Made by a program: the position numbers and the translations under genes. Shown here piece after piece: positions 36,078 through 60,885 of a stretch of 64,000 nucleotides of DNA (the stretch's first letter is position 1; each line of letters begins with the position of its first letter). The notes beneath the pieces were generated by a model, which was given only the letters and a program-made list of their open reading frames with translations, ran no database searches and was not told the origin of the DNA. The DNA comes from Kiritimatiellaceae bacterium (GTDB lineage Bacteria; Verrucomicrobiota; Kiritimatiellia; Kiritimatiellales; Tichowtungiaceae). The DNA lies in NCBI GenBank assembly GCA_013141415.1, contig JABFQY010000005.1, positions 310,001-374,000 on the forward strand, in the 5' to 3' direction.

Positions 36078-37811
36078 ATGAAAAACAGATCCTTGAACTT
36101 CTGTCTGACGAGCCTGCCGACAATCGCGATGCTGGCGGGATCCGCCGTTGCCGCTGAACAGCCGAACATCGTATTCATCCTTACCGATGACCTGGGCTAT
36201 GGCAGCGTGGGTTGCTATGGTGCCGACAAATCGCTGGTGCGCACACCGAACATTGACCGGCTGGCCGCAGAGGGAATCCGCTTTACGGATGCTCAGGTTC
36301 CGGCAACGGTCTGTAGCGCTTCTCGATATAGTCTGTTGACGGGCCGTCACTGCTGGCGCACGCCGGAAAATCACGGTGTGCTTGGAGTCTATGCGCCGTT
36401 GCTGATCGAAACCAACCGGATGAACATGGCATCCCTGTTGAAACAGCAGGGCTATGCTACGGCGGCGATCGGTAAGTGGCATCAGGGGTACGGCCTTCCG
36501 CCGAGGACTGATTTCAGAGAACCTCTAGTGCCCGGGCCGTTACAGGTCGGGTTCGATTACCATTTCGGTGTCGCCGCCAATCATGGCGATGAAACCGGTG
36601 TTTATATTGAAAATGAAGGCGTCTGGGGCTTGCGATCCAAAACATTAACGCCGCGACCGGGCTGCTTTTACAGACCGTATACCTATCTCGGGTTGGATGC
36701 TCCGCAGCGCAAGGATGACGAAGCGATGGACTTCCTGACCGGCAAGGCGATTTCCTGGATGGAACAACAGCCCAAGGGGAAGCCGTTTTTTCTCTATTTC
36801 CCCATGCTGGCGGTGCATGAACCCATCACACCGTCAAAAGAATCCAGCGGAACCAGCGCCGCAGGTCCGTATGGTGATTTTATTCATGATATCGATCTTT
36901 CTGTCGGACGCATCCTGAAGGCGCTGGAAAAGCTTGGCGTATTGGATAATACACTGGTTATTTTCACATCCGACAATGGCGGATCGTATCCGGACTACGG
37001 CCCGAATAAAGTGATCCAGCAGGCGGCCGATGCCGGTTTGAAAATCAACGGCCCGCTTCGGTGGCGCAAGCTGAGTATTTTTGAAGGCGGCAGCCGCGTT
37101 CCGTTTGTCGCGCGCTGGCCCGGACGGATTCCGGCCGGTAAGGTCAGCGATGAAACAATCAATCTGATCGATATGACCGCCACCTTTGCAGAACTGACGG
37201 GTGTAGCGCTCGCACCGGATGCCGCTCAGGACAGCATTAGTGTGAAGGGGGCTCTACTGGGCGGCACGAGTAGCCGGACTGAAACCTCCGCAATGATCAC
37301 GCACAGCACAGACGGAAATTTTGCGCTCCGTCAGGGCCAGTGGAAATATATTGAGGGTAAACCGGCCTATCCATGGCCCGGGAAACTGGCCATGTTTGAA
37401 GAGGGTAAATCTTCCCAATTATACGACCTGCAGAATGATATTGGAGAAACAACAAACCTGCTTAGTCAGTATCCGGAAAAAGTGCGGGCAATGCAGGCGG
37501 AGATCGCCCGGCAGAGGGATCAGGGATTCAGTCGTCCCAGTGCTTTGCCATATGACCGCAACGATTCCCCTAAAATCGCGCCGACCGCCGCCGTTCCGGC
37601 GAAACCGACTGCAAAACTGGCCGCAAAACCGCCGCCTCGTGAGCAGACGTTTATGCAGCTGGATCGGGATGGTAGCGGAACATTGAGCCCGGATGAGTTT
37701 CTTCCGGCCTGTCCGCTCAAAGGAGATGCCGGCAAAGAAAGATTCCGGGATCTGGATCGCAATGGAGACGGATATCTGTCGAAAGACGAGTTCATTAATG
37801 CCGGGAAATGA
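36078..37811 (+). CDS. Secreted type I sulfatase (CSASR) fused to two EF hands
   Basis: 577 residues. Signal peptide to about 26. LTDDLGYGSVGCYG supplies metal ligands; C79-S-A-S-R followed by YSLLTGR is the formylglycine motif with Ala at the usual Pro position, still within the C-x-(P/A)-x-R consensus. IGKWHQG and TSDNGGSYPD complete the site. After about residue 485 comes a Pro/Ala/Lys-rich linker (PTAAVPAKPTAKLAAKPP) and two EF-hand loops: DRDGSGTLSPDE and DRNGDGYLSKDE, with all ligand positions filled. Calcium could stabilise the enzyme or link it to other EF-hand or repeat proteins. It is 18 nt after the propeller gene; TAAGG lies upstream. Confidence 0.93.
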   Translation: MKNRSLNFCLTSLPTIAMLAGSAVAAEQPNIVFILTDDLGYGSVGCYGADKSLVRTPNIDRLAAEGIRFTDAQVPATVCSASRYSLLTGRHCWRTPENHGVLGVYAPLLIETNRMNMASLLKQQGYATAAIGKWHQGYGLPPRTDFREPLVPGPLQVGFDYHFGVAANHGDETGVYIENEGVWGLRSKTLTPRPGCFYRPYTYLGLDAPQRKDDEAMDFLTGKAISWMEQQPKGKPFFLYFPMLAVHEPITPSKESSGTSAAGPYGDFIHDIDLSVGRILKALEKLGVLDNTLVIFTSDNGGSYPDYGPNKVIQQAADAGLKINGPLRWRKLSIFEGGSRVPFVARWPGRIPAGKVSDETINLIDMTATFAELTGVALAPDAAQDSISVKGALLGGTSSRTETSAMITHSTDGNFALRQGQWKYIEGKPAYPWPGKLAMFEEGKSSQLYDLQNDIGETTNLLSQYPEKVRAMQAEIARQRDQGFSRPSALPYDRNDSPKIAPTAAVPAKPTAKLAAKPPPREQTFMQLDRDGSGTLSPDEFLPACPLKGDAGKERFRDLDRNGDGYLSKDEFINAGK

Positions 37812-37858
37812 TTTATAAACCTGGACGAGAAAACGGAAGCCAGAGAAAGGATCAGGAA

Positions 37859-38923
37859 ATGAAAAAGTTAATCAGTATGCTGCTGCTATTCGGAATGGGG
37901 TCGTCAAGCTGGGCGGCGGTAGTGACGTACACACGTGTTGCGACAGGGAGTTGGACGAATCTGGCGCAATGGAAAGATAATGCCACGGGGTCATTTGTTT
38001 TCTCAACCGTTCTGCCGGGAGCGGCGGATCTTGTAGTTATAAATAATAATCTTAGCTTGACGGCGAATGCCGATGCGACCGTTGGAACTCTGCAAGTCGT
38101 GAATAATGCAACCGCCGGCACGTTGACTATGAACAGTGCAAATACGCTGAGCGCAGGTGTGCTTCAGGTCGGTGTTACTTCTACAGGGACTGGTATCGTG
38201 AATCAGACGGCGGGAACTATTTCGGCCATCACAACGACCGTAGGCCGTGCGACGGGAAATGTTGGCACCTATAATCTGTCCGGAGGGAAGCTGGATGTGA
38301 AGTCGACGCTGACAGTCAGTGCGACGGGGCTTGTGGATGTGAAAGGTGGCACACTAAGCCTTTCGGGAGGCGGTACTCACACTATCAGTGGAGTCGGTAC
38401 GATTAAGCTGTCCTCCGGTTTGTTTGAGATCGATGCGTCGATGGCAAACACCAACGTATTGAACTTCACGCCCGGCCTCTTTGACGTGAGCGGCGGAACT
38501 AATAATTTGGATGCTGTGGTGCGGGTGGGAAGTTTAACCGCCCAAACGGAATTCAGGGTGGTGGGGGACGCTGCCACGATCAATATTTCCAAGTTGCAAC
38601 AGGCGTCTTCTGTCACAACCAATGGTGTTTTTCATTTCATCTTCAATGCAACCGGCATCAGCACCATCAATTCCAGTATCTTCCAAACTATGGACGGGGC
38701 AAAGATTGTGGTGGACGGCTCGGCCTACACCGGCCCCGACGGGACGTTCACCCTGTTTGATTCGCCGAATCTGTCGAGCCTTGTAGATACGAACAACATC
38801 ACGATTACCGGGTTTGGCAGTAAAACTGTTTCTATTGTGCAGGATCAAAGCGCTGGCAAAGACTGGGTGCAGCTGGTGGTCGTTTCTCCGGTTAGATCCC
38901 TTTCGCTTGTCATTATCCAATAG
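37859..38923 (+). CDS. Secreted autotransporter-like beta-helical repeat protein (module family 1)
   Basis: 354 residues, signal peptide ending SSSWAA. The body is a series of Gly/Asn/Thr-rich coils: GSWTNLAQWKDNATGSFVF, STVLPGAADLVVINNN, LQVGVTSTGTGIVNQTAG, VGRATGNVGTYNLSGGKLDV, VVDGSAYTGPDGTFTLFDS. The whole length is paralogous to 55937 and, for about 300 residues, to the N-terminus of 49751. No beta-barrel, LPXTG or PEP-CTERM signal is present, so it is probably released or attached through a partner. AAAGGA 7 nt before 37859 sets the start. Between two sulfatase genes it may act as a scaffold or glycan-binding surface protein; that is inference. Confidence 0.75.
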   Translation: MKKLISMLLLFGMGSSSWAAVVTYTRVATGSWTNLAQWKDNATGSFVFSTVLPGAADLVVINNNLSLTANADATVGTLQVVNNATAGTLTMNSANTLSAGVLQVGVTSTGTGIVNQTAGTISAITTTVGRATGNVGTYNLSGGKLDVKSTLTVSATGLVDVKGGTLSLSGGGTHTISGVGTIKLSSGLFEIDASMANTNVLNFTPGLFDVSGGTNNLDAVVRVGSLTAQTEFRVVGDAATINISKLQQASSVTTNGVFHFIFNATGISTINSSIFQTMDGAKIVVDGSAYTGPDGTFTLFDSPNLSSLVDTNNITITGFGSKTVSIVQDQSAGKDWVQLVVVSPVRSLSLVIIQ

Positions 38924-38991
38924 TTTTCAAAGAGACCGTTTAGATGTCTGTGGCGCCAGTCGATGGCTGGCGCTGATTTGGGAGTCGAAGC

Positions 38992-40683
38992 GTGAAACGC
39001 AAAAGGTTACTCACAACAACAGTAGTGGGGTCAGCAGGGCTGGCGCTGCTGAATCCGCAGGTCGGCTATACGGCAGGAACTCCGGCGATCCGGCCCAATA
39101 TCATTGTCGTTGTGATGGATGATTTCGGTCTCGGTCAGTGCGAGGCGTACAGCCGCACGCTGGGGGCGGGCGATATGGATCCGCATCTGGTCGAACTGGT
39201 CACCGGCGGACATCGTAATTTTAAGCAGCACGATCCGTCCGAAGGGTTGCAAGCGTCACGTCAGGCTATGCCTTTTTTGACAGGGCTGGCCGATGCCGGC
39301 GTGCGTTTTAATAACGCCTACTCGGCCTCTTCGCTCTGTGCTCCGTCGCGGCAGGCGCTTCTTTCCAGCCGTTACCCGCAACGCTGGGGAGTGTACAACA
39401 ACGCCGCCGCCGATGAAACCGGCGTGCCGCTTGATCAGCGCTGTCTGCCCGAATTGCTCCACGAAGCCGGTTACGCTACCGCCGCTATTGGCAAATGGCA
39501 TGTGGCAAGGGTCGATGATTCGTTGCGCGACAAGGTACTTGATGCCGAAGGATGGAAGGGTTCGCGCCACTGGATGCAACTGCGCAAGGCCAGTCCCGCG
39601 ATGTACAAAAAAGCGATTGCTGAAACCGGGTATTGCGGCGCGAGCGTTTTCGCGCAGCATCCGTTGCGCCGGGGATTTGATTATTTCTTCGGCTACAACT
39701 GGTCCGGCGCCACCTATTACAAGGCCGATAACATCTGGGAAAATGACACATTTACAGGTGTGCGCCCCGACGGCGAGTACAACACCGAGCTGTTTACACA
39801 GAAGGCCGTTGATTTTCTTGATCGCACCCTGAAGGATGGAAAGCCTGCTTTTATTTATCTCGGTTATCACGCGGTGCACGGCTCGCTGAATTATAAGCCG
39901 CCGCTGAAATATCTGGAAAAATTTAACAGTAAACAGGAATGGGTGAACAGTTTCTACGGACACGTCAACGCCGTGGACGAAGGGATCCGGTCTATCTTTG
40001 AAAAGCTGAAGTCTTATGGGCAGGCGGACAACACCCTTTTCATTTTCACTACCGATAACGGAGCTTCCGGAAACTCGTACGGCGCGATTCTGCCGTTTAA
40101 CGCACCGAGTAAGGGAGCCAAAGGAGAGGCCTGGCAGGGCGGGCACCGGGTGCCGATGATTGCTTCGTGGCCTGGACGCATCAAAACCGGACGGGTAGAG
40201 GAAGGACTGGTTTCTCTGATGGATATTATGCCGACAGCAGTCGAGGCCTCCGGGGCCCCTGTTCCGGCGGGGCTGGATGGACGCAGTCTGCTGCCGTTGC
40301 TGAACGGACGCGAAAAAGGGCCGGTGCATGACACGCTCTTTTTCTTCGGCATCCATTCGACCATCTGGAGTTTCCCTGACGATCATTATAACGAAGGCGA
40401 CGAGCGGCAGGCGCCTCTTTTTGCCGCCGCACGGCAGGGCGACTGGCTCTACAAAGTGATCGGCTCCATTCCGCCCGGACTTTATCCGGACCTGCCGAAC
40501 GGTCAGCCGAAACAGGTGCTACTTTTTAACATCAAGAATGACCCCGGCGAAAAAAATAATGTAATTGCCGGGAATCCTGAAGTTGCCGAGGCGCTGCGGA
40601 AGAAGCTGAACGGCTGGACGGCTGAAACCAAACCGCCGCTTTGGGTACTCAAAGAAAAATGGGAAGAGATCGTGCAACCGTGA
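38992..40683 (+). CDS. Secreted type I sulfatase (CAPSR), GTG start
   Basis: 563 residues. The start is GTG at 38992 with GGGAG 7 nt upstream. A basic-hydrophobic leader (KRKRLL, then GSAGLALLNPQ) closely resembles that of the next sulfatase. VVVMDDFGLGQCEAY is the metal segment; a long insert of about 50 residues separates it from C116-A-P-S-R-QALLSSRYPQRWG. IGKWHVARV and TTDNGASGNSYG complete the active site. The insert and SSRYPQRWG resemble the arylsulfatase branch acting on galactose or fucose sulfates, but the substrate is not readable. No EF hand here, unlike its neighbours at 36078 and 40714. Confidence 0.92.
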   Translation: MKRKRLLTTTVVGSAGLALLNPQVGYTAGTPAIRPNIIVVVMDDFGLGQCEAYSRTLGAGDMDPHLVELVTGGHRNFKQHDPSEGLQASRQAMPFLTGLADAGVRFNNAYSASSLCAPSRQALLSSRYPQRWGVYNNAAADETGVPLDQRCLPELLHEAGYATAAIGKWHVARVDDSLRDKVLDAEGWKGSRHWMQLRKASPAMYKKAIAETGYCGASVFAQHPLRRGFDYFFGYNWSGATYYKADNIWENDTFTGVRPDGEYNTELFTQKAVDFLDRTLKDGKPAFIYLGYHAVHGSLNYKPPLKYLEKFNSKQEWVNSFYGHVNAVDEGIRSIFEKLKSYGQADNTLFIFTTDNGASGNSYGAILPFNAPSKGAKGEAWQGGHRVPMIASWPGRIKTGRVEEGLVSLMDIMPTAVEASGAPVPAGLDGRSLLPLLNGREKGPVHDTLFFFGIHSTIWSFPDDHYNEGDERQAPLFAAARQGDWLYKVIGSIPPGLYPDLPNGQPKQVLLFNIKNDPGEKNNVIAGNPEVAEALRKKLNGWTAETKPPLWVLKEKWEEIVQP

Positions 40684-40713
40684 ACAGCAATCTGTTCGTG
40701 CGAAGCGGAGAAA

Positions 40714-42336
40714 ATGATGAAACGAAATAATCTACTCACACCGGCGGCGATGGGCTCCGTAGGACTGGCATTGCTGAATCCGCAGACCGGCCTGACCGCG
40801 CCATCGGCTAAGCCGAATATTGTATTTATTTATGCCGATGACTGGGGGTGGGGCGATCTGTCCAGCCACGGGCATCCCTACGTGAAGACCCCGAACCTTG
40901 ACCGGTTGCGCGCCGAAGGAACCGACTTCACCCAGTTCAATGTGCTCAGTCCGGTTTGTTCCCCGAGCCGGGCGGCGGTGATGACGGGACACTATCCGGC
41001 ACGGTACAGCATTCACCAGCATTTTGCCTCTCCGGAGCTGAATCGCACAAACGGTATGCCGGACTGGCTGGATCCGCAGGCGGTTACAATTCCGAAACTG
41101 CTCAAACAGGCCGGATACAGCACGGCGCACTTCGGCAAATGGCATTTGACCGGCGGAGGGACTGCGGGGGCCCCGACGCCTGATGCCTACGGGTATGATG
41201 AATCGATTGTTTTCAATGGCGGTGCCGGCTGGCCTGCGGCGATTCGCGGGAACGAACACGCTACGGCAGACAATACGGCAAAGTTTATTCTGGCTAATAA
41301 AGACCGGCCGTTTTTTGTGAATGTCTGGATTCATGAAAGCCATACACCGCACACGCCGACGGCAGAATCGATGGCCGAATACAGCCATCTGGACAACCGG
41401 CAGCAGGTGTACGCCGCCGTGATTGCCGATGGCGACAAGGCGGTTGGTGCCGTGCTGGCTGCGATCAAGGCCGCCGGTGTAGAACAAAACACACTCGTTA
41501 TCTTTTCCAGCGACAACGGGCCGGAGTCTCAGGGGGAATCAGAGAGTCAGAAAAAACTGGGCAGCGGATACGGCACATACTACAGCGTTGGCCAGACCGG
41601 AGGTCTGCGCGGACATAAACGCAGTTTGTTCGAGGGTGGCGTTCGCGTGCCGTTCATTGTGCGCTGGCCCGGTAAAGTCCCGGCTGGAGTGGTTAATGAC
41701 AAAACCGTGGTCACCGCGGTTGATCTATTACCGACATTCTGTGCCATTGCGGGAGTCAGTCTGCCTGCCGGGTACACTCCGGACGGCGAGAATATTTTGC
41801 CGGCCCTGACGGGTCATACACCGGTGCGCAACAAGCCCGTCTTCTGGGAATGGAAAGGTCATGCTGGCGAACCGGACTGGTGGCCGCGTCTGGCGGTGCG
41901 CGACGGCGACTGGAAGCTCGTGATGACCTATGATGGCAGTCGTGTCGAATTACATCAGCTCATCAATGACCGCGCCGAGTCGAACGATGTATCGAAAGAG
42001 CACCCTGAAATCGTCAGCCGTCTGAGCAGACTGGCGCTCGACTGGAAAGCCACTTTGCCGGCGGCACCGGATCATGAGTGCATCAGTAAAGCGGCCGAGC
42101 CGGTTAACGTTGAGCAGAAAGCCCCTGCAGCGGGAAGCCCGGCTGCCGCTAAACAGACCGATCGTACCAAAGCCTTCGAGAGGATGGACAAGGATAAGAG
42201 TCAGGATCTGACCCTCGACGAGTACGTATCCGGACTGAAAGGGGAGGCTAATCTTGAGGCCCGCTTCAAAAACTTTGATAAGGATGGTGACAGCAAACTG
42301 ACGCGCAAAGAGTTCGTTACGCCGGGCGCGAAGTAA
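40714..42336 (+). CDS. Secreted type I sulfatase (CSPSR) fused to two EF hands
   Basis: 540 residues. The leader has GSVGLALLNPQTG, almost the same as the previous gene. YADDWGWGDLSSHG; C82-S-P-S-R-AAVMTGHYPARYSIHQHFAS; FGKWHLTGG; SSDNGPESQGES. HQHFASPE plus GMPDWLDP also occurs in the 58848 sulfatase, so these two belong to one subfamily. The C-terminus (from about 480) has EF loops DKDKSQDLTLDE and DKDGDSKLTRKE after an Ala/Pro-rich linker; loop 1 has Asp at its seventh position and lacks the central Gly, so it may bind weakly. Two ATGs (40714, 40717) follow GGAG. It is 30 nt after the preceding gene. Confidence 0.93.
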   Translation: MMKRNNLLTPAAMGSVGLALLNPQTGLTAPSAKPNIVFIYADDWGWGDLSSHGHPYVKTPNLDRLRAEGTDFTQFNVLSPVCSPSRAAVMTGHYPARYSIHQHFASPELNRTNGMPDWLDPQAVTIPKLLKQAGYSTAHFGKWHLTGGGTAGAPTPDAYGYDESIVFNGGAGWPAAIRGNEHATADNTAKFILANKDRPFFVNVWIHESHTPHTPTAESMAEYSHLDNRQQVYAAVIADGDKAVGAVLAAIKAAGVEQNTLVIFSSDNGPESQGESESQKKLGSGYGTYYSVGQTGGLRGHKRSLFEGGVRVPFIVRWPGKVPAGVVNDKTVVTAVDLLPTFCAIAGVSLPAGYTPDGENILPALTGHTPVRNKPVFWEWKGHAGEPDWWPRLAVRDGDWKLVMTYDGSRVELHQLINDRAESNDVSKEHPEIVSRLSRLALDWKATLPAAPDHECISKAAEPVNVEQKAPAAGSPAAAKQTDRTKAFERMDKDKSQDLTLDEYVSGLKGEANLEARFKNFDKDGDSKLTRKEFVTPGAK

Positions 42337-42358
42337 TTGCTGAGGAAACGCTCATGCG

Positions 42359-46984: not shown

Positions 46985-46997
46985 AAGGTCTCCAACG

Positions 46998-48206: not shown

Positions 48207-48220
48207 ATTTAAGGAGAGGG

Positions 48221-49702: not shown

Positions 49703-49750
49703 AGACATCGCAGCCGATCTTTGGCCGTCCAAGGACTGGAAAGGAAAAAA

Positions 49751-52327
49751 ATGAAAAAGGTAATCAGTATATTATTAGTGACGGGGTTGAGCCTGTCCAG
49801 CTGGGGGGCAGTGTATGCCCGCAAAGCGTCCGGCAACTGGTCCACTTTAACGCAATGGCAGGATAATGCCACTGGCTCTTATATTACCTCTACGGTTTTG
49901 CCGGGATCATCTGACACAGCCGTCATTAATAACAGTATGATAGTGGCGCTGAACACGGATGCGACCGTTTCTCTGTGTCAAATTGTGAATAACGCCAACA
50001 GCGGGATGTTAAACGTCAGCAGTACAAATATGCTAACGGTGTCCTCGCTTCAGGTCGGCGCTAATTCAACCGGTACCGGAACTTTGAACCAGACGGCGGG
50101 AACTGTTTTTGCGGCCACCACCACGGTAGGGCGCGCGACCGGCGCACCCGGAACCTATAATCTGACCGGCGGAACGTTCAACATGAACGGGACGCTTACC
50201 ATCAACAGCACCGGCTTGTTTGATTTGAATGGAGGTGTGCTGAGCAATTCCTATAGCGGGGCGAATCGCACCATCGGCGGCACCGGAATCTTCCGAATGT
50301 CGTCGGGAGCGATCATCATAAACGGAACCCCGGCGACGAACCTGTTCATCGTGAGTGTCGCCACGTTTGATATGACCGGAGGTGAAATCGTAACGGAAAA
50401 ACAATTCCAGCTGGGTACAGCGACCGCCAGCGCGGTTTTTAATCTGGGCGGAACCGGCCGCGTATTTGCAGACAGTTTTTCGGCGCTCTCCTCTTCAAAA
50501 ATGAATTTTCAGGGGACAAATTCCGCCTTGTATCTGGGCGGACAGAATCAGCGCAGTGCCATCACGGCGGCGGCGGCGTCCGGGCGCATCCAGATTGACG
50601 GAACCAATGTCTTAGACTCGTCTTTCTTTGTTTACGAAAACGTCAATGTGGCAGGGAAAGACTGGACCAAGATTACGGTTTTTAATCCCACCACCGTGCA
50701 GCTTCCGCCGGTGGACGCAACCACGCTGAATGGAAAGGTTCTATGCGGATATCAGGCCTGGTTTACAGCGGCAGGCGATTACGGAAGTAATACCCGCTGG
50801 ATTCACTGGGCCAGAAATCATGCAATGCCGGCCGGCACCAATCTGACGATTGAAATGTATCCGGATCTTTCTGAATACGCGGACGATGAGCTGTTCGCCA
50901 CGACGATGACTAAAGGAGGTCAGCCCGCTATGCTCTATTCCGGCACACGGTATAAAACCGTCCGGCGCCATGTGCGCTGGATGCAGGAATACGGCATTGA
51001 CGGGGCGTTCGTTCAGCGCTTCGTCGTTACGCAGGCCGGAGCAGACACATCGTATAAAAACCATATGCTGAACGCCCTGAAGAACTTCCAGACCGGCTGC
51101 GAAGAGTATGGCCGGGTGTTTGCGGTGATGTACGACGTGTCGGCTATGGCGGCGACCAGCAGCTGGTGGAGCGTTATAACCAACGACTGGACGATGCTGG
51201 TGGACTCCGGAATTGTCGGCAGCGACCGCTATCTGAAACACAACGGCAAGCCGGTGGTGGGGATCTGGGGTTTCGGCTTCAAGACCGATCCGCACGGGCC
51301 GGACGATCCGGCGGTCGCCCTTGCGTCGATCAACTGGTTTAAAACCGGCGCGCCGGCACAATACCGTGCCACGGTGTTCGGCGGAGTTCCGGGACAGTGG
51401 AGGACAAGAGACGGCGACTCGTTCACCGCCTCCGGGTGGACCGGCGTTTACCACGCCTTTGATGTGGTGAGTCCGTGGACCGTCGGGCGCTACAACAGCA
51501 ATTCCGGAGCGGACACTTGGAAAACGAGCAGAATTGTTCCGGACATAGCGGACACTCAGTCCGCTGGAATCGGCTATTGTCCGGTTATCTGGCCCGGGTT
51601 CTCGTGGTACAACTTAAACGCCGGTCCAAAAAATGAGATTAAACGCGACGGTGGGAACTTCTATTGGCGGCAGGCTCACAATGCCATTTCGGCTGGCGCG
51701 ACGAATATGATTTATATCGCGATGTTCGATGAGGTGGATGAAGCCACGGCAATTTATAAAACAGCGCCGACGGCGGCCCAGACTCCCGATCAAGGCTATT
51801 GGCTGACGCTGGATGCCGACGGATATTCGCTGCCCAGCGACTGGTATCTGCGGCTCGCTTTTGAGACCGGTCGCATGCTCCGCAAAGAAACCGCGCTTAC
51901 CGCGACCCGCCCTTCAAATCCGGGGCCGTTCTCGACCGTCCACGGCACCGCTCTCTCATGGTTGAACACCCATCAGCTCATCACCGACGGGGCTGAGGTG
52001 GCGGACGCGGAAGATCCGGACGGCGACGGCTTTAAAACCTGGCAGGAATATCTGGCGGGAACCGACCCCACCAACGCAGCATCTCTTTTCCGCATGACGG
52101 GCATCAGCTTTTCCAACGGTGCGGCAGTTGTGTCGTGGTATGGAACGGCTGGCGGGTCTGCGGCCCCGTGGAGCATGTATGTCAGCACCAACTTGTCCGG
52201 AGGCTGGACCTTGGCTGCCAGCAACAGCATTCCCAGAAACCCCGTAAACGGAACCAACCGCTGGGTGGACAGCTCGGCGACGAATAAGCAAATCCGATTT
52301 TACCGTCCGGCAGTTTTCGGCCCGTAG
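49751..52327 (+). CDS. Beta-helical carrier module fused to a GH71/99-like glycosidase domain
   Basis: 858 residues. Signal peptide ends SSWGAV. Residues 20-320 are module family 1 (GNWSTLTQWQDNATGSYI, STVLPGSSDTAVINN, LQVGANSTGTGTLNQTAG, VGRATGAPGTYNLTGG). From about 321 the sequence switches to a TIM-barrel-like domain resembling GH71/GH99-type proteins: GYQAWFTAAGDYG, RWIHWARNH, LTIEMYPDLSEYADDELF, RWMQEYGIDGAFVQRF, KPVVGIWGFGF, VIWPGFSWYN, MIYIAMFDEVDEATAIYK. GH99 enzymes act on alpha-mannosides; here specificity is inferred only. The tail holds EDPDGDGFKTWQEYLAGTDP (about 755) and a beta domain. AAAGGA precedes the start. Confidence 0.78.
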   Translation: MKKVISILLVTGLSLSSWGAVYARKASGNWSTLTQWQDNATGSYITSTVLPGSSDTAVINNSMIVALNTDATVSLCQIVNNANSGMLNVSSTNMLTVSSLQVGANSTGTGTLNQTAGTVFAATTTVGRATGAPGTYNLTGGTFNMNGTLTINSTGLFDLNGGVLSNSYSGANRTIGGTGIFRMSSGAIIINGTPATNLFIVSVATFDMTGGEIVTEKQFQLGTATASAVFNLGGTGRVFADSFSALSSSKMNFQGTNSALYLGGQNQRSAITAAAASGRIQIDGTNVLDSSFFVYENVNVAGKDWTKITVFNPTTVQLPPVDATTLNGKVLCGYQAWFTAAGDYGSNTRWIHWARNHAMPAGTNLTIEMYPDLSEYADDELFATTMTKGGQPAMLYSGTRYKTVRRHVRWMQEYGIDGAFVQRFVVTQAGADTSYKNHMLNALKNFQTGCEEYGRVFAVMYDVSAMAATSSWWSVITNDWTMLVDSGIVGSDRYLKHNGKPVVGIWGFGFKTDPHGPDDPAVALASINWFKTGAPAQYRATVFGGVPGQWRTRDGDSFTASGWTGVYHAFDVVSPWTVGRYNSNSGADTWKTSRIVPDIADTQSAGIGYCPVIWPGFSWYNLNAGPKNEIKRDGGNFYWRQAHNAISAGATNMIYIAMFDEVDEATAIYKTAPTAAQTPDQGYWLTLDADGYSLPSDWYLRLAFETGRMLRKETALTATRPSNPGPFSTVHGTALSWLNTHQLITDGAEVADAEDPDGDGFKTWQEYLAGTDPTNAASLFRMTGISFSNGAAVVSWYGTAGGSAAPWSMYVSTNLSGGWTLAASNSIPRNPVNGTNRWVDSSATNKQIRFYRPAVFGP

Positions 52328-52423
52328 ATGGTTTAATCGTTGGAACCACATTACAGACAATAGATTACATCACAATAGACAGGGAGAACGTAGTCCGCCA
52401 AAGAAACATTTTTAAAAAACCAG

Positions 52424-52455
52424 TTGACCGGAAAATCGAATATTAGTATTAATAA
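52424..52455 (+). promoter_or_regulatory. Promoter with AT-rich palindrome, copy 3
   Basis: TTGACC (52424-52429), 17 nt, then TATTAA (52447-52452). The palindrome ATATTAGTATTAATAA (52440-52455, 14 of 16 to the consensus) contains the -10 box, so a bound protein would block RNA polymerase. It is 81 bp before the 52537 start. Confidence 0.6.
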
Positions 52456-52536
52456 TTATCGGGCAAGGATTTTGGGCCGGATTTTTGGTGAAACAGGAGC
52501 AGAAGAAAACGGAAATCAAAAATAGGAGAATGAGTC

Positions 52537-54399
52537 ATGAGAAGTATAAGTAAAAGATTAATAGCCATGCTCGCGCTGATCGCGTTGAGCGGTGTGGCGC
52601 AGGCGGCCAGCGGGACGTGGACGAACCTTACCAGCGGGTTGAACTATGGCACGCCAGGGAACTGGCTGGGCGGCGTTGTGGCTGCCGGCGGTGCCGGGAT
52701 GACGGCGGACTTCAATACGCTGAACATCACAGGCGATACGACGGTTAACCTCGAAGCAGCGCGCGGCATTGAAGACCTTGTTTTCGGTGACACCGACACA
52801 AGTACAGCGGGTAGCTGGATTATCAGTAATACAAACACCCTGACTTTTTCCGGAACGACACCTTCGATCACGGTGAATGCACTGGGCGCGGGCAAGAGCG
52901 CAACGATCAACGCCAAGGTTGGCGGAACGGCTGGATTGACCAAAGACGGCGTGGGCACGTTGATACTGGCTACCAATGCCGTCTATACCGGCAACACCGT
53001 GATCAGCAACGGCACACTACAGCTTTCACTGCAATTAGCTACCGGTACCGGACTCTCCAGCACAAACATCACGGTTAAGAACGGTGGTACGTTTGCCCTC
53101 GCTGGCGGTGTTTTTAACGGAACGGCTCTGGCCGCAGGCACCTTTCTTGATGTAGAAAATGGCGGCACGTTGCGTTTGGATAAGTATTTGGTCGGCAAAT
53201 ATGCAAAATTTGCCACCGGCGCCTCTGTTACAGGTACGAACCTTCTATATCTTAATGTCGTCGATGCGGCGACGAGAAAGGTTTTGACGATGGGGTCGGC
53301 AGATTTTTCAAATTTGGCCGTGGTTTTGCGCCCAGATAATACAGTCAATCCTACGCAGACGCTCCAGTTTGATGGTACCGGCAACGGTGCCACGATGAAG
53401 GCTCTCACGCTTCAGCCCGGCGTAAATGTGGCATCAACCGGTATTCACAATTACATTATGGACATCGGCGACAGCGCCACGGCGGACAATGATCTGACCG
53501 TCGCAACGCTGACAACTTCCGGAGATGGCACTCAGACGCGCATTATGACCAAGCAGGGGTTGGGAACCATGCTGGTCAGCAATAACGTTACTGGGAATAA
53601 CGCGAATTACGACCTGAACGTCAACACGGGCAAAATGATTTTCGCTGCCGCCGCGAACATGAAGAGCATAACCGTCGGTTCGTCCGGCACGCTCCAGCTC
53701 GGCAATGATGCCGCAGGCGGATCGTCCACGACAGCTATCGCCAACAACGGCACGGTGGACTTTAAGCGCACTGACGCCTACACCCACTCCGCGAACATCA
53801 GCGGCTCCGGTCTGGTGAATAAATCGGGCACAGGGGATCTGACGTTCACCGGTGCGAAGACCTACACCAATACGACGACCGTTTCTGCCGGCAAGCTGAT
53901 CGTAGACGGCAGCCTGCTCAGTCGGCAGATCGATGTGTTGAACGGTGCCACGCTGAGCGGTTCCGGAACCGTGCAGAGTGTGACGCTGAATGCCGGCGCC
54001 ATTCTGGCTGTCGGTAACAGCCCCGGCACAATGACCTTTGCCAGCGACGTGGTGTTGTCCGCAGGTTCGACCAATATCATGGAAATTTTCACTGTGGGCT
54101 TCGATGTATTGAAGGGTTCCGCAACCAACACGCTGACGATGGCTGGAGCAACCATCTTTGATTTCACCGGTAATACGGTTACCACCGGCACAACCTTTAA
54201 TGTTGTGCAGAACTGGGGAACAGTCACGACCAACGGTGCAACGTTCTCAGTTGTCGGTCTGGGTGAAGGTCAAGACCTTGACTACAGCCAGCTGGTAACT
54301 AGCGGTATCGTGACGGTTATTCCTGAACCGGCGACGATCGGAATGCTGGGTCTGGGCGCTCTGATTACGCTGATGCTGCGCCGCATGCGTACCCGCTAA
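52537..54399 (+). CDS. PEP-CTERM autotransporter-like repeat protein (module family 2)
   Basis: 620 residues. Signal peptide ends AQAASG. The body consists of PATR-like beta-helical repeats (GTLILATNAVYTGNTVISNG, GTGDLTFTGAKTYTNTTTV, SGKLIVDGSLL-type units). Residues 25 to about 430 align with the N-terminal half of the 42359 protein, including TPSITVNALGAGKSATI and IHNYIMDIGDSA. It ends with a complete PEP-CTERM signal: VIPEPATIGMLGLGALITLM, then RRMRTR. It should therefore be anchored or sorted by exosortase, whereas its enzyme-fused paralogue is not. AGGAG precedes the start; a strong terminator follows at 54421. Confidence 0.85.
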   Translation: MRSISKRLIAMLALIALSGVAQAASGTWTNLTSGLNYGTPGNWLGGVVAAGGAGMTADFNTLNITGDTTVNLEAARGIEDLVFGDTDTSTAGSWIISNTNTLTFSGTTPSITVNALGAGKSATINAKVGGTAGLTKDGVGTLILATNAVYTGNTVISNGTLQLSLQLATGTGLSSTNITVKNGGTFALAGGVFNGTALAAGTFLDVENGGTLRLDKYLVGKYAKFATGASVTGTNLLYLNVVDAATRKVLTMGSADFSNLAVVLRPDNTVNPTQTLQFDGTGNGATMKALTLQPGVNVASTGIHNYIMDIGDSATADNDLTVATLTTSGDGTQTRIMTKQGLGTMLVSNNVTGNNANYDLNVNTGKMIFAAAANMKSITVGSSGTLQLGNDAAGGSSTTAIANNGTVDFKRTDAYTHSANISGSGLVNKSGTGDLTFTGAKTYTNTTTVSAGKLIVDGSLLSRQIDVLNGATLSGSGTVQSVTLNAGAILAVGNSPGTMTFASDVVLSAGSTNIMEIFTVGFDVLKGSATNTLTMAGATIFDFTGNTVTTGTTFNVVQNWGTVTTNGATFSVVGLGEGQDLDYSQLVTSGIVTVIPEPATIGMLGLGALITLMLRRMRTR

Positions 54400-54420
54400 T
54401 CAATGCGGCTTGAAAATAAA

Positions 54421-54450
54421 AAACCCGGCTTCGATAAGCCGGGTTTTTTT
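54421..54450 (+). terminator. Rho-independent terminator after 52537 gene
   Basis: AAACCCGGCTT and AAGCCGGGTTT form an 11-bp stem around CGAT, followed by a T-run. It lies 22 nt after the stop codon. Confidence 0.93.
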
Positions 54451-54548
54451 ATGAACTGAAACGGATTTTATACCAAGTGCGAATGAAATTTGGCATTTAA
54501 CCAGACCCGCTGCCCCGAAGTTTCGTGGGCGGCCTACAAAATCTGTAG

Positions 54549-54567
54549 GCCCGGTCCCCGACCGGGC
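54549..54567. repeat. GC hairpin before REP-like repeat
   Basis: GCCCGGTC pairs with GACCGGGC around CCC, immediately upstream of REP-like copy 2. It may be part of the same repeat unit. Confidence 0.4.
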
Positions 54568-54577
54568 GTTCTTTATG

Positions 54578-54601
54578 CCGAATATCATGCGGTTTTGGTA
54601 T
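54578..54601 (+). repeat. REP-like repeat, copy 2 (left of HAD gene)
   Basis: CCGAATATCATGCGGTTTTG then GTAT. It is the exact inverse of copy 3 at 55611-55634, so the two bracket the HAD gene. Confidence 0.75.
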
Positions 54602-54648
54602 TATTGATTGGAATGGTTGGCAAACGGCGCGGGGAGAACTTTTAAAAC

Positions 54649-55611: not shown

Positions 55612-55634
55612 TACCAAAACCGCATGATATTCGG
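55611..55634 (-). repeat. REP-like repeat, copy 3 (right of HAD gene)
   Basis: ATACCAAAACCGCATGATAT then TCGG, the inverse of copy 2. Its first base is the final A of the HAD stop codon. A degenerate direct copy (CCGAACCTCATACTCATTTT) lies at 55727-55750. Confidence 0.75.
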
Positions 55635-55936
55635 TTTATAAACAAGGCAACCGGGACGGTTGCGATACGTACCGCCGCCGTCTAGTTCGACAGGCTCACC
55701 ACGGGCCGGCGGCCTTGCCATAAATACCGAACCTCATACTCATTTTGTATGACCCCCAGAAGGGCGGATCCATCCAGACCTTGGAATATCCGTACAGGCC
55801 GGGGAATACAATGGCTGGGGTTTTCTCTGACTAAAGTTGACGGCAAGCTTTTTTATTAGTATTAATAATGAGAATGTAGAGCGGCGCCGCAGACGATGCG
55901 GACGAAGGTCAGGCAAACGTAGTGAAAGGAAACCAG
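55612..55936. other. Intergenic region with repeats and promoter
   Basis: 325 bp without a gene: REP-like copy 3, a GTTCGACAGGCTCACCACGG dispersed-repeat segment (55685-55704), a degenerate REP-like copy (55727-55750) and the palindrome-bearing promoter (55837-55868). Confidence 0.5.
55837..55868 (+). promoter_or_regulatory. Promoter with AT-rich palindrome, copy 4
   Basis: TTGACG (55837-55842), 17 nt, TATTAA (55860-55865). The palindrome TTATTAGTATTAATAA (55853-55868) is 15 of 16 to the consensus and covers the -10 box, the same geometry as copy 3. The start codon is 68 bp downstream. Confidence 0.65.
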
Positions 55937-56956
55937 ATGAAAAAAATAGTCAGTATATTGGTTCTATTGTCATTAGGTGCTTCCGGCTGGGCGGCGCCTT
56001 TGTTTACCCGTACGGCAGATGGTAACTGGTCTGCGCTGTCTCAATGGAAGGATAATGGTTCCGGCAAGTTTGCTGCCTCCTCGGTATTGCCGGGATCCGA
56101 AGACAATGTGGTCGTAAATTCTAACAGGAAGGTGACATTGGACACCGACTCAAGTGTTGCACTTTTTCAAATTATAAATAGCGCCAGTAGTGCCATAGTA
56201 GATGTTGACGGTGAAAATACGCTGACGGCGGAGTTAATTCAGGTCGGTTTGAATTCAACAGGGCTCGGCATTTTGAACCAAACGGCGGGGACTATTTCTT
56301 CTCCTAAAATCTGGGTGGGTCGTTTGGCAGGGAATCCGGGAACCTACAATTTGTCCGGCGGGGCATTGGATATGAACGGGTCGCTTAACATAAACAGCAC
56401 CGGGCTGATGAATGTGAATGGCGGCACGCTGAACAATTCATTTAATGGAGCGGTTCGTACAATCAGTGGAGCCGGTACGATTAAACTGTCAGCCGGTTCT
56501 ATCAATCTAAAGGGTACTTTAGAGACGGATCGGGTCGATCTGAATGGCGCTCTTTTTGAAGTGAGCGGCGGGACAGTTAATTTGGGCGCTCAGGTGCGGG
56601 TTGGCGGCAAAGTGCCGGCGGAATTCAGAGTGGTCGGGCACAATGCGGCCATTACGTTTGGTGCGCTGGATCAGGACGTCGCCACGAAAGGGACGTTTAA
56701 ATTTGTTTTCGATACGACCGGCATCAGTCCTATCCAAGTGACCGACTCGATGAAGCTGTCACAGGCCAAGATCGTTGTGGACGGTTCAGCCTACACCGGC
56801 AACGGCGGAACATTTACGCTGTTTAGTTCAGCCGGTCTGGTGAGCGTGGCGGATATCAATAATATCACTATTATCGGGTTCGGTTCCAAAACCGCCGCTA
56901 TTGTGCAAGATGAGGCGAATGGTAAAGTGCAGCTGGTGGTTACACCTTCAGTGTAG
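55937..56956 (+). CDS. Secreted autotransporter-like beta-helical repeat protein (module family 1)
   Basis: 339 residues, signal peptide ending GASGWAAP. It follows the 37859 protein nearly throughout: GNWSALSQWKDNGSGKFA, VLPGSEDNVVVNSN, IQVGLNSTGLGILNQTAG, VGRLAGNPGTYNLSGGALDM, ISGAGTIKLSAGS, IVVDGSAYTGNGGTFTLFSS, GFGSKTAAIVQD. No anchor signal is visible. AAAGGA precedes ATG 55937; the GTG at 55922 is less suitable because the site overlaps it. It is separated from the downstream sulfatases by a MITE-like element. Function unknown; probably a surface or matrix component. Confidence 0.75.
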   Translation: MKKIVSILVLLSLGASGWAAPLFTRTADGNWSALSQWKDNGSGKFAASSVLPGSEDNVVVNSNRKVTLDTDSSVALFQIINSASSAIVDVDGENTLTAELIQVGLNSTGLGILNQTAGTISSPKIWVGRLAGNPGTYNLSGGALDMNGSLNINSTGLMNVNGGTLNNSFNGAVRTISGAGTIKLSAGSINLKGTLETDRVDLNGALFEVSGGTVNLGAQVRVGGKVPAEFRVVGHNAAITFGALDQDVATKGTFKFVFDTTGISPIQVTDSMKLSQAKIVVDGSAYTGNGGTFTLFSSAGLVSVADINNITIIGFGSKTAAIVQDEANGKVQLVVTPSV

Positions 56957-57346
56957 TCGGATAGCCTGATGACCGTAACCGGCAGGGTGTAATACGGAAT
57001 CAATCTGATTTGTATTGAGCGGAATCCGAAAAAGATTTTTTACCACCCGCTTCGCTAGAGGGATCTCCGAGGGGGTCAGAGGGGAAGTTCAGGAATCAGG
57101 GGTCAGAAGTCAGATGGAATAAACGGTGTCCCATAGTTTAGGGGCAGCCCTGTTGGCAAAGGGCTTGATTCGGAGTAGAGATCGCAAGTAAAAACGAGCT
57201 TTCACTTGAGATCTCTGCTCCAAATCTGTTCCGTTTGTTGAGAGAAGCTCTCCGACTTACTCCGAAGTCGGCTCTAGCGAAGCGGGTGGTGAAAAAATAT
57301 TGATTAAGTTAATTTCGTATATGGGTTTGTAAAAAAGGTCAAAACT
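56957..57346. other. Intergenic region dominated by a MITE-like element
   Basis: 390 bp between the repeat protein and the sulfatase pair. Apart from the element at 57036-57319 no gene or clear promoter is visible; the sulfatase start follows 28 nt after the element, so its promoter may lie within it. Confidence 0.5.
57036..57319. repeat. MITE-like element, copy 2
   Basis: Ends TTTTTTACCACCCGCTTCGC (57036-57055) and GCGAAGCGGGTGGTGAAAAA (57277-57296). Compared with copy 1 it is inverted, about 85 bp longer between the ends, and shares the outer tail TTAAGTTAATTTCGTA (57304-57319). Internal matches include CCGTTTGTTG (57231-57240) and CTAGAGGGAT (57055-57064). No open frame for a transposase. 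Confidence 0.7.
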
Positions 57347-58834
57347 ATGAGAAGAACCGGAGTTTACAATAAAACGGCACAGCTCTTTTTTACAGGCCTG
57401 ATGGGTCTGAGTGCAACGGGCTATTCGTTCGCGGCCGAAGCGCAAAAACCGAATATCGTTTTCATTCTTACCGATGATCAGGGGTACGGGGATATGGGCC
57501 GCACCGGCAACCCGATTCTTAAAACACCAAATATCGACCGGTTGTACGACCAGAGCGTGCGGTTCGATAACTTCTGTGTTGCAGCGGCCTGTGCGCCGAC
57601 CCGGACCGCCCTGATGACCGGATTGCATCACTTTAAATCCGGAGTGACCCATACGATTCCGCCGCGCGAGCATATGGCGAAGGAGCGCACAATTCTTCCG
57701 CAGTTTCTTAAGCAGGCGGGCTATATGACAGCCCATTTCGGGAAATGGCACATGGGGGACGGGCCGGGATACAGCCCGAAAGACCGTGGATTTGATTATG
57801 ACGTGTCGATTGCTGACGCGCAGGGCGAGAAGGGTTTTTTTAACCCGGTCGCCAGACGTAACGGGAAGTCGGTGCCGAGTCAGGGGTTCCGTGAAGATGT
57901 GCTTTTTGATGAGGCCATTCGTTTTATTGGCGAAAACAAGGAGAAGCCCTTCTTCTGTTATCTGGCCACCTGGTCGCCGCACGATCCGTTGCGCGCACCG
58001 GAGGAGGATATTGCGCCGTATCGCGGCAAGGTGGATGAAAAAACCGCTGTGTTTTACGGAATGGTCGCCAATGTTGATAAAAATGTCGGTCGGTTGATGG
58101 CGCGGATTGAAGAACTGGGACTGAGCAGCAACACCATTGTGATGCTGATGAATGATAACGGCGGAACGTATGGCGTCGAGACGTATAACGCTGGCATGCG
58201 CGGGTGCAAATGCACGTCATGGGTCGGTGGATTCCGTGCTTTTTCGCTCTGGAGCTGGCCCGGTAAATGGCAGCCGCATAATGTGGATGTACTGACGGAT
58301 GCGGTGGATGTTCTGCCGACGCTCACTGAAATTGCCGGCGTATCTCTTCCTCCGGAACTTAACGCTTCGAAGGACGGCTTCAGTCTGGTTCCGCTGCTCG
58401 AAGGGCGTTCCGTTGCATGGGAAGACCGGATGGTTTTCCAGCATGTCGGGCGCTGGGCGGGCGGCATGGCCGCGCTCAGTAAATATACCGAAGCCGGTGT
58501 GCGCTGGAAAAATTTCATGCTGGCCCGCCGGGAACCTTCCAGTGATCCGCAAGGCTTGAGCGCGGCCGAAAAGCAGGCCTCCAATAATAACCTCCTGCGG
58601 ATACAGCGGGGCGAGATCAGTGCGCCCTATACCAAAACCAATGCGCAATTTCATTGGGGTCTGACGCAAGGCTGGGAGCTTTATGATGTGGTGGCCGATC
58701 CGGCCTGCCAAACGAATCTATCGGCTCAGATGCCCGAACTGACTCAGCGGATGGAGAAAGCCTACGACACATGGTGGGACGGCATGTTCCCGCAAATGAT
58801 GGAGCAGGGCGGAGATGAGAAGTTGAAATATTAG
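57347..58834 (+). CDS. Secreted type I sulfatase (CAPTR motif)
   Basis: 495 residues. Signal peptide to about 30 (GYSFAAEAQ). LTDDQGYGDMGRTGN; C82-A-P-T-R-TALMTGLHHFKSGV; FGKWHMGDGPGYSP; MNDNGGTYGVETYNAGMRG. The CAPTR motif and DDQGYGD are as in the 5558 sulfatase, but this one lacks the C-terminal beta tail. AAAGG lies 8 nt before the start. It is followed 13 nt later by another sulfatase, so the two are probably co-translated. The long segment WGLTQGWELYDVVADPACQTNL near the end is the usual sulfatase C-terminal strand pair. Substrate unknown. Confidence 0.92.
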   Translation: MRRTGVYNKTAQLFFTGLMGLSATGYSFAAEAQKPNIVFILTDDQGYGDMGRTGNPILKTPNIDRLYDQSVRFDNFCVAAACAPTRTALMTGLHHFKSGVTHTIPPREHMAKERTILPQFLKQAGYMTAHFGKWHMGDGPGYSPKDRGFDYDVSIADAQGEKGFFNPVARRNGKSVPSQGFREDVLFDEAIRFIGENKEKPFFCYLATWSPHDPLRAPEEDIAPYRGKVDEKTAVFYGMVANVDKNVGRLMARIEELGLSSNTIVMLMNDNGGTYGVETYNAGMRGCKCTSWVGGFRAFSLWSWPGKWQPHNVDVLTDAVDVLPTLTEIAGVSLPPELNASKDGFSLVPLLEGRSVAWEDRMVFQHVGRWAGGMAALSKYTEAGVRWKNFMLARREPSSDPQGLSAAEKQASNNNLLRIQRGEISAPYTKTNAQFHWGLTQGWELYDVVADPACQTNLSAQMPELTQRMEKAYDTWWDGMFPQMMEQGGDEKLKY

Positions 58835-58847
58835 AGGAACCGAAGGC

Positions 58848-60557
58848 ATGAAAAAACGAACATCGAAACGGTTTGGTCGGTTGAGTTTACTTCAAGGTGC
58901 AGCCGGGATGTCTTTGCTGGCTTTGGCCTCCCGCAGTTCCGCCGCACCGGTTCCTTCTCAGGAAGCCCGTCCGAATATCATATTTATTTATGCGGACGAT
59001 CTTGGCTGGGGCGACTTGGCCGTGAACGGGAATACGAATATTTTTACTCCCAATCTGGACAGGCTGGCTTCGGAAGGGATGAATTTTTACCAGTTTACCG
59101 TCAACAACCCGGTCTGCTCGCCGAGCCGGGTTGCTTTGCTGACCGGAAATTTTCCTTCCCGGTTCGGTGTGCACCAGCACTTTGCTTCGCCGGCGGAAAA
59201 TCAGAAGCGCGGCATGCCGGACTGGCTTGATCCTGACGCCGTAACCTTGCCGAAAATTTTGAAACAGGCCGGGTATGCAACGGCGCATTACGGCAAGTGG
59301 CACCTTTCTCTCGCCGGAGCGGGTAAGGAAGCTCCGGAATATCCTGCGTACGGCTATGATGATGCGGCAGTTTATGCCTGGGCGGGACCCAATACACGCG
59401 ACGTATTCACCGGAACATCCGTAGAAAGCAAAAAAGGGCAACCCCATGAAAGAGAACCTTCTGCCTATCTGACTGTTGCTGCGGTTGAAAACACGCTTAC
59501 GTTCATCGAAGCTCATAAACATGAACCTTTTTTTATCAATTTATGGATTCATGAAACACATACCTATATTGCCGCCCGCCCTGAGGATCGCATTCCTTAT
59601 AAAGACGTTCCGGAGCCCGAACAGACCTATTATTCGGCCGTGACGCGGGCGGACACCCAGATCGGTTCGGTTCTCAGGAAGCTTGATGAACTGGGATTGA
59701 AGGATAACACCATCGTGGTTTTCTCCAGTGATAACGGGCCGGAAGTTCCGAATGAAACTCCAGCAGCGATGACCTATTACAGCCGTGGCAGTGCCGGCGG
59801 GTTGAAGGGACAAAAACGCAGTCTCTACAGCGGCGGAGTCAACACGCCGTTCCTGATCCGCTGGCCGGGCAAAATTCCTGCCGGTAAAATTGATAAAACC
59901 ACCATGATTTCGGCCGTTGATATGCTTCCTACACTGGCCGCCGCCGCCGGAGTGAAGCAACTGCCTGCAGGCTATCAGAGCGACGGTGAAAATATGTTGC
60001 CAGCGATGTTCGGAAAACCGATGGATCGCTCCAAACCGCTTTTCTGGAAATGGAATGGAGATCATAGCGGAAATAACTGGCCGGCGTATGCGATGCGTGA
60101 CGGACGATGGGTTTTCCTGATCAACGAGGACAGGAGTCGGATTGAACTGTACGATGTAATCACCGATCGCGATCAAAAAAATAATCTGTTTGCACAGGAG
60201 CCTGAGCGCACGAAGGTGATGCAGGCGGCAGTAGAGCGGTGGATTGAAACCCTGCCGAAAACAGTTCCCGTCCGTCTAACCGCAGGTGGACAGGCGCAGT
60301 CCGCACCAGCTCCTTCGCCCGTGGTGGAGAAGGTTCAGAAGATCCCGGTCAGCACGGCGCAAGGACCGGCGGCGGTCCGCACGAACCTCTTTAAGAAGCT
60401 TGATGCCGATCACGACGGGTCGGTGTCCTTTGCTGAATTTCTTGGAGCCCGGCAAGACGACGCAGCGGCGTCCCTGCGGCAGCGGTATGATTCCTTTGAC
60501 ACCGATAAAGACGGAACGCTGACAGAACAGGAATTTGTCAGTGCGGGGAAAAAGTAA
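58848..60557 (+). CDS. Secreted type I sulfatase (CSPSR) fused to two EF hands
   Basis: 569 residues. A basic leader (KKRTSKRFGRLSLLQGAAG) is followed by a hydrophobic core and ASRSSAAP. YADDLGWGDLAVNG; C90-S-P-S-R-VALLTGNFPSRFGVHQHFAS; GMPDWLDPDAVTLPKILKQAG shared with the 40714 sulfatase; YGKWHLSLAG; SSDNGPEVPNE. After a Pro/Ala/Val-rich linker (about 475-515) come EF loops DADHDGSVSFAE and DTDKDGTLTEQE, complete for calcium. The tail (TDKDGTLTEQEFVSAGK) is nearly repeated by the free EF-hand protein encoded 40 nt downstream (TNKDGTLTEQEMVNAGK). GAGGAA precedes the start. Confidence 0.93.
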   Translation: MKKRTSKRFGRLSLLQGAAGMSLLALASRSSAAPVPSQEARPNIIFIYADDLGWGDLAVNGNTNIFTPNLDRLASEGMNFYQFTVNNPVCSPSRVALLTGNFPSRFGVHQHFASPAENQKRGMPDWLDPDAVTLPKILKQAGYATAHYGKWHLSLAGAGKEAPEYPAYGYDDAAVYAWAGPNTRDVFTGTSVESKKGQPHEREPSAYLTVAAVENTLTFIEAHKHEPFFINLWIHETHTYIAARPEDRIPYKDVPEPEQTYYSAVTRADTQIGSVLRKLDELGLKDNTIVVFSSDNGPEVPNETPAAMTYYSRGSAGGLKGQKRSLYSGGVNTPFLIRWPGKIPAGKIDKTTMISAVDMLPTLAAAAGVKQLPAGYQSDGENMLPAMFGKPMDRSKPLFWKWNGDHSGNNWPAYAMRDGRWVFLINEDRSRIELYDVITDRDQKNNLFAQEPERTKVMQAAVERWIETLPKTVPVRLTAGGQAQSAPAPSPVVEKVQKIPVSTAQGPAAVRTNLFKKLDADHDGSVSFAEFLGARQDDAAASLRQRYDSFDTDKDGTLTEQEFVSAGKK

Positions 60558-60597
60558 ATTGCGGGGATCAGGGAAGTAAAACAACAGGAGGTCTATG

Positions 60598-60885
60598 ATG
60601 AACAAAAGGAATACCGGTAAAGCGTTGGTGATGGGTTCAATTTTTGCGCTCACGTTATCAATTTGCGGCGAGGCCCGTGCGCAGGATCCGGCGGCAGCCC
60701 GTGCAAGCGTCTTCAAGAAATTCGATACGAATCGTGACGGATTCATGTCATTCGATGAGTTTATTCCGGCCTGTCCGCTCCGAAATGATCTGGCAGCGAC
60801 CCGAGCACGATATGATTCATTTGATACCAATAAAGATGGAACGCTGACCGAGCAGGAAATGGTCAACGCAGGTAAAACGAATTAA
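60598..60885 (+). CDS. Small secreted EF-hand protein (free-standing sulfatase-tail homologue)
   Basis: 95 residues. Signal peptide to about 28 (CGEARAQDP), then only two EF hands: DTNRDGFMSFDE and DTNKDGTLTEQE, both with full ligand sets. The sequence between them (FIPACPLRNDLAATRARYDSF) matches the EF-hand tails of the 36078 (FLPACPLKGD) and 58848 sulfatases. AGGAGG ends at 60591; ATG 60598 is better spaced than ATG 60595. Probably a calcium-binding periplasmic or extracellular protein made by duplication of a sulfatase tail. It may bind calcium or the sulfatases themselves; no enzyme activity is expected. Confidence 0.85.
   Translation: MNKRNTGKALVMGSIFALTLSICGEARAQDPAAARASVFKKFDTNRDGFMSFDEFIPACPLRNDLAATRARYDSFDTNKDGTLTEQEMVNAGKTN

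Follow-up and report, generated by a model that had tools for sequence, protein, structure and literature searches.

Three exported sulfatases encoded in a stretch of 64,000 nucleotides (nt) from a Kiritimatiellaceae bacterium of the phylum Verrucomicrobiota (contig JABFQY010000005.1, positions 310,001 to 374,000; the whole stretch is called here the window) end in a pair of EF hands, and a small secreted protein encoded directly behind one of them consists of almost nothing but such a pair. The EF pair is a predicted folded domain, is under selection and is optional to the enzyme that carries it at its C-terminus. The reading we prefer, with a probability of roughly 0.4, is that a portable, calmodulin-like EF pair filled with Ca2+ tethers the exported sulfatases, and that the free copy, putatively, is able to occupy the same target.

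Sulfatases of the Planctomycetes, Verrucomicrobia and Chlamydiae (PVC) bacteria are very numerous, most of them are uncharacterised and the roles of their accessory domains are largely unknown. The existence of the same enzyme with tail and without it, and of the tail alone, is a natural experiment, and makes it possible to test directly what calcium-binding add-ons contribute when polysaccharides are broken down outside the cell. The fusion of EF hands with sulfatases is itself already known: calmodulin-like EF hands fused to sulfatase domains have been mentioned for verrucomicrobiae (PMC7016017), with the same architecture and in the same bacterial group as the window sulfatases. The passage concerned names the fusion in one sentence; the signature, the gain and loss data and the free copy come from the present analysis. 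No report of a free EF twin of a sulfatase tail was found in the open-licence literature by title or abstract.

Architecture of the tailed sulfatases and of the free protein

The features concerned, all on the + strand, are the following.

36078..37811, +: exported sulfatase of 577 amino acids (aa), Pfam PF00884 (E 8.5e-51) plus EF hands; EF tail at residues 521-577
37638..37808, +: the two EF hands that end the 36078 sulfatase, with loops at 37662-37697 and 37755-37790
37692..37718, +: 27-nt tract in the tail of the 36078 sulfatase, 26/27 identical to 60754-60780
40714..42336, +: exported sulfatase of 540 aa, its EF tail covering residues 484-540 (loops at 42187-42222 and 42277-42312)
58848..60557, +: exported sulfatase of 569 aa (Pfam, AlphaFold2 (AF2) model); EF tail at about residues 508-569
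60258..60368, +: linker of low complexity in the 58848 sulfatase, residues 471-507 (AF2 confidence, substitution ratios)
60369..60554, +: the two EF hands that end the 58848 sulfatase, with loops at 60402-60437 and 60498-60533 (Pfam, AF2)
60586..60591, +: AGGAGG resembling a Shine-Dalgarno site, 6 nt upstream of the ATG (60598) of the free EF gene
60598..60885, +: free secreted EF-hand pair protein of 95 aa, loops 60724-60759 and 60823-60858; the frame also opens at 60595
60754..60780, +: counterpart of the 37692-37718 tract inside the free EF gene, with a single difference

A linker followed by two C-terminal EF loops had been described by the first-pass annotation for the sulfatases at 36078, 40714 and 58848, and this architecture was confirmed by the open reading frames and by Pfam, the linkers being of low complexity. 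The scores of the three enzymes for PF00884 (173.5, 176.1 and 182.5 bits) are far above the gathering cut-off of 25, and two EF hands were found in each, with EF-hand_1 E values of 3.5e-11, 1.3e-7 and 8.9e-11 in the 577-, 540- and 569-aa proteins, respectively. The formylglycine motif of S1-type sulfatases, C/S-x-P/A-S-R, is present in their translations as VCSASR, VCSPSR and VCSPSR. The solved proteins closest to the 58848 sulfatase are carrageenan and N-acetylgalactosamine-6-sulfatases, a likeness which does not fix the substrate. Among the 33 Sulfatase matches of the whole genome (one of them a fragment), the EF tail was found only on the three window enzymes.

The loop ligands D-x-D/N-x-D/S ... 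E (positions 1, 3, 5 and 12) are kept in all four EF-bearing proteins of the window. Loop position 6 is a glycine in all loops (six of eight) but the two of the 40714 sulfatase, which have Q and S there and form the least canonical tail. Both the 36078 and the 40714 tails are only 36-37% identical to that of the 58848 protein. The sulfatase family itself binds calcium in the active site. Calcium-coordinating residues are named for Kiritimatiellales sulfatases in a passage of PMC6388578.

The small protein had been described as a signal peptide with little more than the EF tail, 40 nt behind one of the sulfatases, and this holds for the 58848 stop when the second ATG is taken as the start: AGGAGG stands 6 nt before that ATG, which makes a length of 95 aa and a gap of 40 nt likely. 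In the longer, 96-aa frame Pfam recognises EF hands alone (EF-hand_1, E = 9.4e-13). The near-exact stretch shared with the 58848 tail was also found, YDSFDT-KDGTLTEQE being nearly identical, and 41 of 67 residues are identical in the local alignment of both.

Fold, selection and distribution of the EF pair

The nearest comparison genome (G012) belongs to the same genus and has orthologues of the 58848 and 36078 proteins, its counterpart of the 40714 protein being a more distant relative. The ratio of the proportions of nonsynonymous and synonymous differences (pN/pS, Nei-Gojobori) was computed separately for catalytic domain, linker and EF pair, with values of 0.175, 0.527 and 0.140 for the 58848 protein, 0.153, 0.529 and 0.174 for the 36078 protein and, against the distant relative, 0.406, 0.639 and 0.303 for the 40714 protein. 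Between orthologues, constraint on the EF part thus matches that on the catalytic domain, and the linker is drifting; the EF pair is held as firmly as the enzyme, and the linker is not.

The AF2 model of the 58848 protein, built on 26 sequences, agrees with such a division: the block means of the predicted local distance difference test (pLDDT) range from 71 to 93 in the EF domain, with values below 50 over linker residues 486-505. Helix-loop-helix is predicted twice in both modelled proteins, the 58848 sulfatase and the free protein. The best rows of Foldseek and VIA-align are calcineurin B, calmodulin, polcalcin, RASEF and SCaMC. Foldseek has a best E of 8.2e-3 and none at 1e-3, and VIA-align places 63 residues on 4zcu_A with a root-mean-square deviation of 2.0 and a Z of 9.2, a Z below about 13 being weak for helical folds. 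All rows of both searches are of the EF-hand, calmodulin-like kind, although this does not speak against other folds. Calmodulin and calcineurin B, the top structural matches, share with the window tails pairs of EF loops with intact ligands, but the tails are exported, comprise one pair only and end a few residues past the second loop.

The survey of EF hands on related sulfatases proposed in the first pass was carried out on public genomes with the 58848/40714 family, and among the best 80 of 573 candidate loci 18 end in an EF pair, most of them in Verrucomicrobiota and one in a Pirellulales record. The other 62 relatives are untailed, including L074, whose state is unknown, being cut by the contig end. 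In a tree of 103 sulfatase domains (tails excluded, quickly built, with long branches and with the truncated L074 as a 'none' row), at least 12 changes of tail state are needed, 9 of them forced by starred branches, against a mean of 25.5 after shuffling. Untailed catalytic domains 73-85% identical to tailed ones exist; the untailed L091 is 85% identical over 442 residues to the tailed L099 and L103. Eleven untailed loci with a stop were examined, and in none of them does an out-of-frame EF pair lie behind it. Related bacteria thus gain and lose the tail freely and, since enzymes 85% identical differ in it and its state has changed repeatedly, the tail is an optional addition that does not belong to the core of the enzyme.

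These data bear directly on the proposal that the EF pair stabilises the sulfatase, or aids its folding or the filling of the catalytic calcium site after export. EF domains often serve as calcium-stabilised folds, and the purifying selection on the tail would fit such a role, but the existence of untailed catalytic domains 73-85% identical, the long linker with its low model confidence and the predominance of untailed relatives (62/80, with the reservation on L074) go against it. Core stability as the main role, one of the purposes put forward in the first pass, is therefore weakened, and both this role and the supply of catalytic calcium are considered unlikely. The broader claim that the EF hands serve something other than catalysis is supported by the separate AF2 fold, the purifying selection and the tailless close homologues.

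Two further ideas on the distribution of the tails were discarded. Marine as against freshwater habitat, suggested by the isolate names of tailed records, which pointed to fresh water, was dropped as a cause of tail presence without being counted, apparently marine genomes of the same order being also tailed. Homogenisation of the tails inside a genome was rejected, as tail and catalytic identities covary (r = 0.73 over 1275 pairs), and the 27-nt tract of the window is the sole sign of local exchange.

The sulfatase-type signature and the possible role of the tail

A tail model of 23 rows was run against 288 genomes of the phylum, 45 of which matched at E <= 1e-9. Thirty loci were fetched with it, and 19 of the 20 long frames (which include the window's own locus and that of G012) are sulfatases of several subfamilies. 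Less similar EF tails occur on other proteins, for example an arylsulfotransferase and an Lcl_C protein; in G012 an arylsulfotransferase-like protein with an EF-pair tail (L034:3834-5678) adjoins a sulfatase.

The comparison of 51 sulfatase tails with 30 free EF proteins, the window's free one excluded, revealed four residues, numbered as model columns, none of which is a calcium ligand: R19 (41/51 against 3/30), R52 (43/51 against 5/30), F56 (35/51 against 3/30) and R66 (35/51 against 2/30). Moreover, sulfatase tails end flush, with a median of 2 residues beyond the EF match against 14 in the free proteins. The sulfatase-type tails thus share three arginines, one phenylalanine and a flush end, which ordinary free pairs lack. 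In calmodulin numbering we take the four columns to be F12, M51, V55 and F65, at or near the target-binding groove, and the tail arginines presumably occupy positions that are hydrophobic in calmodulin. A conserved groove lined with arginines would suit an acidic or sulfated ligand.

On the preferred reading, a flexible linker would join the portable calmodulin-like EF pair to the C-terminus of the exported sulfatase. In the periplasm or outside the cell the pair would be constantly filled with Ca2+, and calcium would thus be a structural ligand and not a signal. The folded domain would tether the enzyme to a target, either a sulfated polymer or a surface partner, by means of a surface lined, in the sulfatase-type version, with the conserved arginines. 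The 60598 protein, putatively descended from a 58848-type tail, having one patch in common with that of 36078 and exported alone, could occupy or bridge the target of the tails, and may thus act as a tether or adaptor.

Several points weigh against this reading. The proportion of 19/20 is biased to sulfatases, as the model was built from sulfatase tails, and the arginine signature could be structural or reflect a common ancestry of the tails. R66 is missing from the free protein; in G012 another gene lies directly behind the 58848 orthologue, with no free EF gene there; and free EF-pair proteins are common, with a sulfatase in only 1 of 17 neighbourhoods.

A calcium sensor, in which the tail would switch the activity or the release of the enzyme as external Ca2+ changes, would make use of the calmodulin-like fold of the pairs, and regulated roles have been suggested for bacterial EF-hand fusions in general (PMC7016017). 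The exported location and the long linker, however, make a switch less likely, and we regard a sensor as very unlikely.

Calcium-mediated assembly of several enzymes, with the EF tails docking with each other or with a scaffold and the free protein as adaptor or cap, had been suggested in the first pass. A second, independent case of a tail with a free counterpart, which speaks for the preferred reading, was found in G012. There, a sulfatase tail with four EF loops (L030:14143-16011) and a secreted four-loop EF protein (L030:11202-11549), 41% identical, lie in one cluster. This four-loop module was matched in 13 of the 288 genomes and is carried by sulfatases, GDSL esterases, a SASA/GDSL protein, a histidine phosphatase and a 3-keto-disaccharide hydrolase; in an AXE1 esterase of G205 (L230:7025-10522) it is N-terminal, the gene lying 12 nt behind a tailed sulfatase. 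Found across several enzyme types, the module looks like a common tag, which would favour an assembly, as would the grouping of several tailed sulfatases per cluster: in the 18.5 kb of the locus L166 (G151:C95:24000-42500), EF tails are present on four of the nine sulfatase ORFs.

In cellulosomes, dockerins are likewise C-terminal pairs of calcium loops on several extracellular enzymes, but the window tails are canonical EF hands. The best dockerin match (PF00404) in the whole genome reached 12.7 bits against a cut-off of 22.9, outside the EF-tail genes, and the best cohesin match (PF00963) 16.5 bits against 24.1, the genome being 95.5% complete and the absence therefore not certain. Furthermore, tails only 36-37% identical to the 58848 tail give no evident common receptor site, two genomes with several tails (G053 and G151) have no free twin at the threshold of the tail model, and the gene behind tailed sulfatases is not constant. 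An assembly is thus held to be rather unlikely. A wider proposal, that the Ca2+-filled EF module is a portable, cohesin-independent docking tag of PVC bacteria for polysaccharide-desulfating and -deacetylating enzymes, whose arginines replace the hydrophobic groove of calmodulin and grip a sulfated or acidic ligand, with free copies as adaptors or competitors in trans, is speculative and quite improbable.

Origin of the free copy and neighbouring genes

That the free protein is a module of the sulfatase type, and not just any EF protein, is supported by its signature and its flush end. It has R19, R52 and F56 and, in the comparison with the 30, is the only genuine free protein combining the three; one more free row with all of them is a sulfatase end cut by the locus border and was discounted. 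The ordinary free secreted EF-pair proteins of Verrucomicrobiota (L169-L185) resemble it in having a signal peptide and two EF loops, but show neither the sulfatase-type arginine/phenylalanine signature nor the flush end, and mostly have no sulfatase nearby.

At the nucleotide level, the free gene lies at nearly the same distance from the 58848 tail of its own genome (108/162 nt) as from that of G012 (111/162 nt), and its split is thus probably old; it has probably since been lost from G012, or was always absent there. The free gene is near-identical to the 36078 tail over 27 nt (26/27, against 64/135 elsewhere) and otherwise resembles the 58848 tail. The 27-nt stretch is more divergent in the G012 copy, and 238 of 200000 codon shuffles scored as high as the tract, a figure uncorrected for the choice of pair; the tract suggests local exchange between the 36078 tail and the free gene. 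An origin as a sulfatase gene minus its catalytic domain was rejected, since the DNA of the 5' region from 60595 compared with six window sulfatase starts was not above shuffled sequence.

The free gene could also be a by-product, a duplicated tail which acquired a signal peptide but serves no function itself. This would agree with the lack of a free gene behind the orthologous sulfatase in G012, and with the finding of just one other free EF gene, of a different type, in the flanks of the 80 sulfatase loci. Its calcium ligands, signal peptide and strong ribosome site are nonetheless all intact, and the pN/pS against the 58848 tail is 0.27 (proportion of synonymous differences, pS, 0.77), a constraint lying partly on the sulfatase branch; this ratio argues against a decaying gene. 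We consider a by-product rather doubtful.

Tailed sulfatases are not generally accompanied by a free twin. Elsewhere in the window's genome, three small EF proteins with two loops are encoded, and a further one has a single loop. In G053 and G151, with 6 and 7 matches to the tail model, all matching frames are long, and hence no free twin exists there at E <= 1e-9. The one free EF gene in the sulfatase flanks, that of Aliiglaciecola (L085), precedes by 95 nt an untailed sulfatase belonging to the same family, and most of the signature is missing from its product. This small secreted EF protein of Aliiglaciecola lipolytica (L085:5574-5900) is encoded inside a sulfatase cluster.

As regards the neighbouring genes, secreted repeat proteins (37808 and 42359) lie behind two of the three tailed sulfatases of the window, and likewise behind two of three in G012. 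A constant partner gene was nevertheless rejected: in the 18 tailed loci the next same-strand gene is most often a sulfatase (7/18 within 200 nt) or variable. The DPDGDG motifs noted in the first pass were confirmed in three proteins of the window (19042, 42359 and 49721), which are secreted and carry them near their C-termini; the thrombospondin type 3 profile gave no match in these three at E <= 1e-4 in the Pfam scans. Three paralogous secreted proteins, 40-51% identical, are encoded near sulfatases at 37808-38923, 49721-52327 and 55922-56956, and a homologue of them sits behind the 58848 orthologue in G012. Finally, the products of 22323-23123 and 52537-54399 end in C-termini which we take to be of the PEP-CTERM sorting-signal type.

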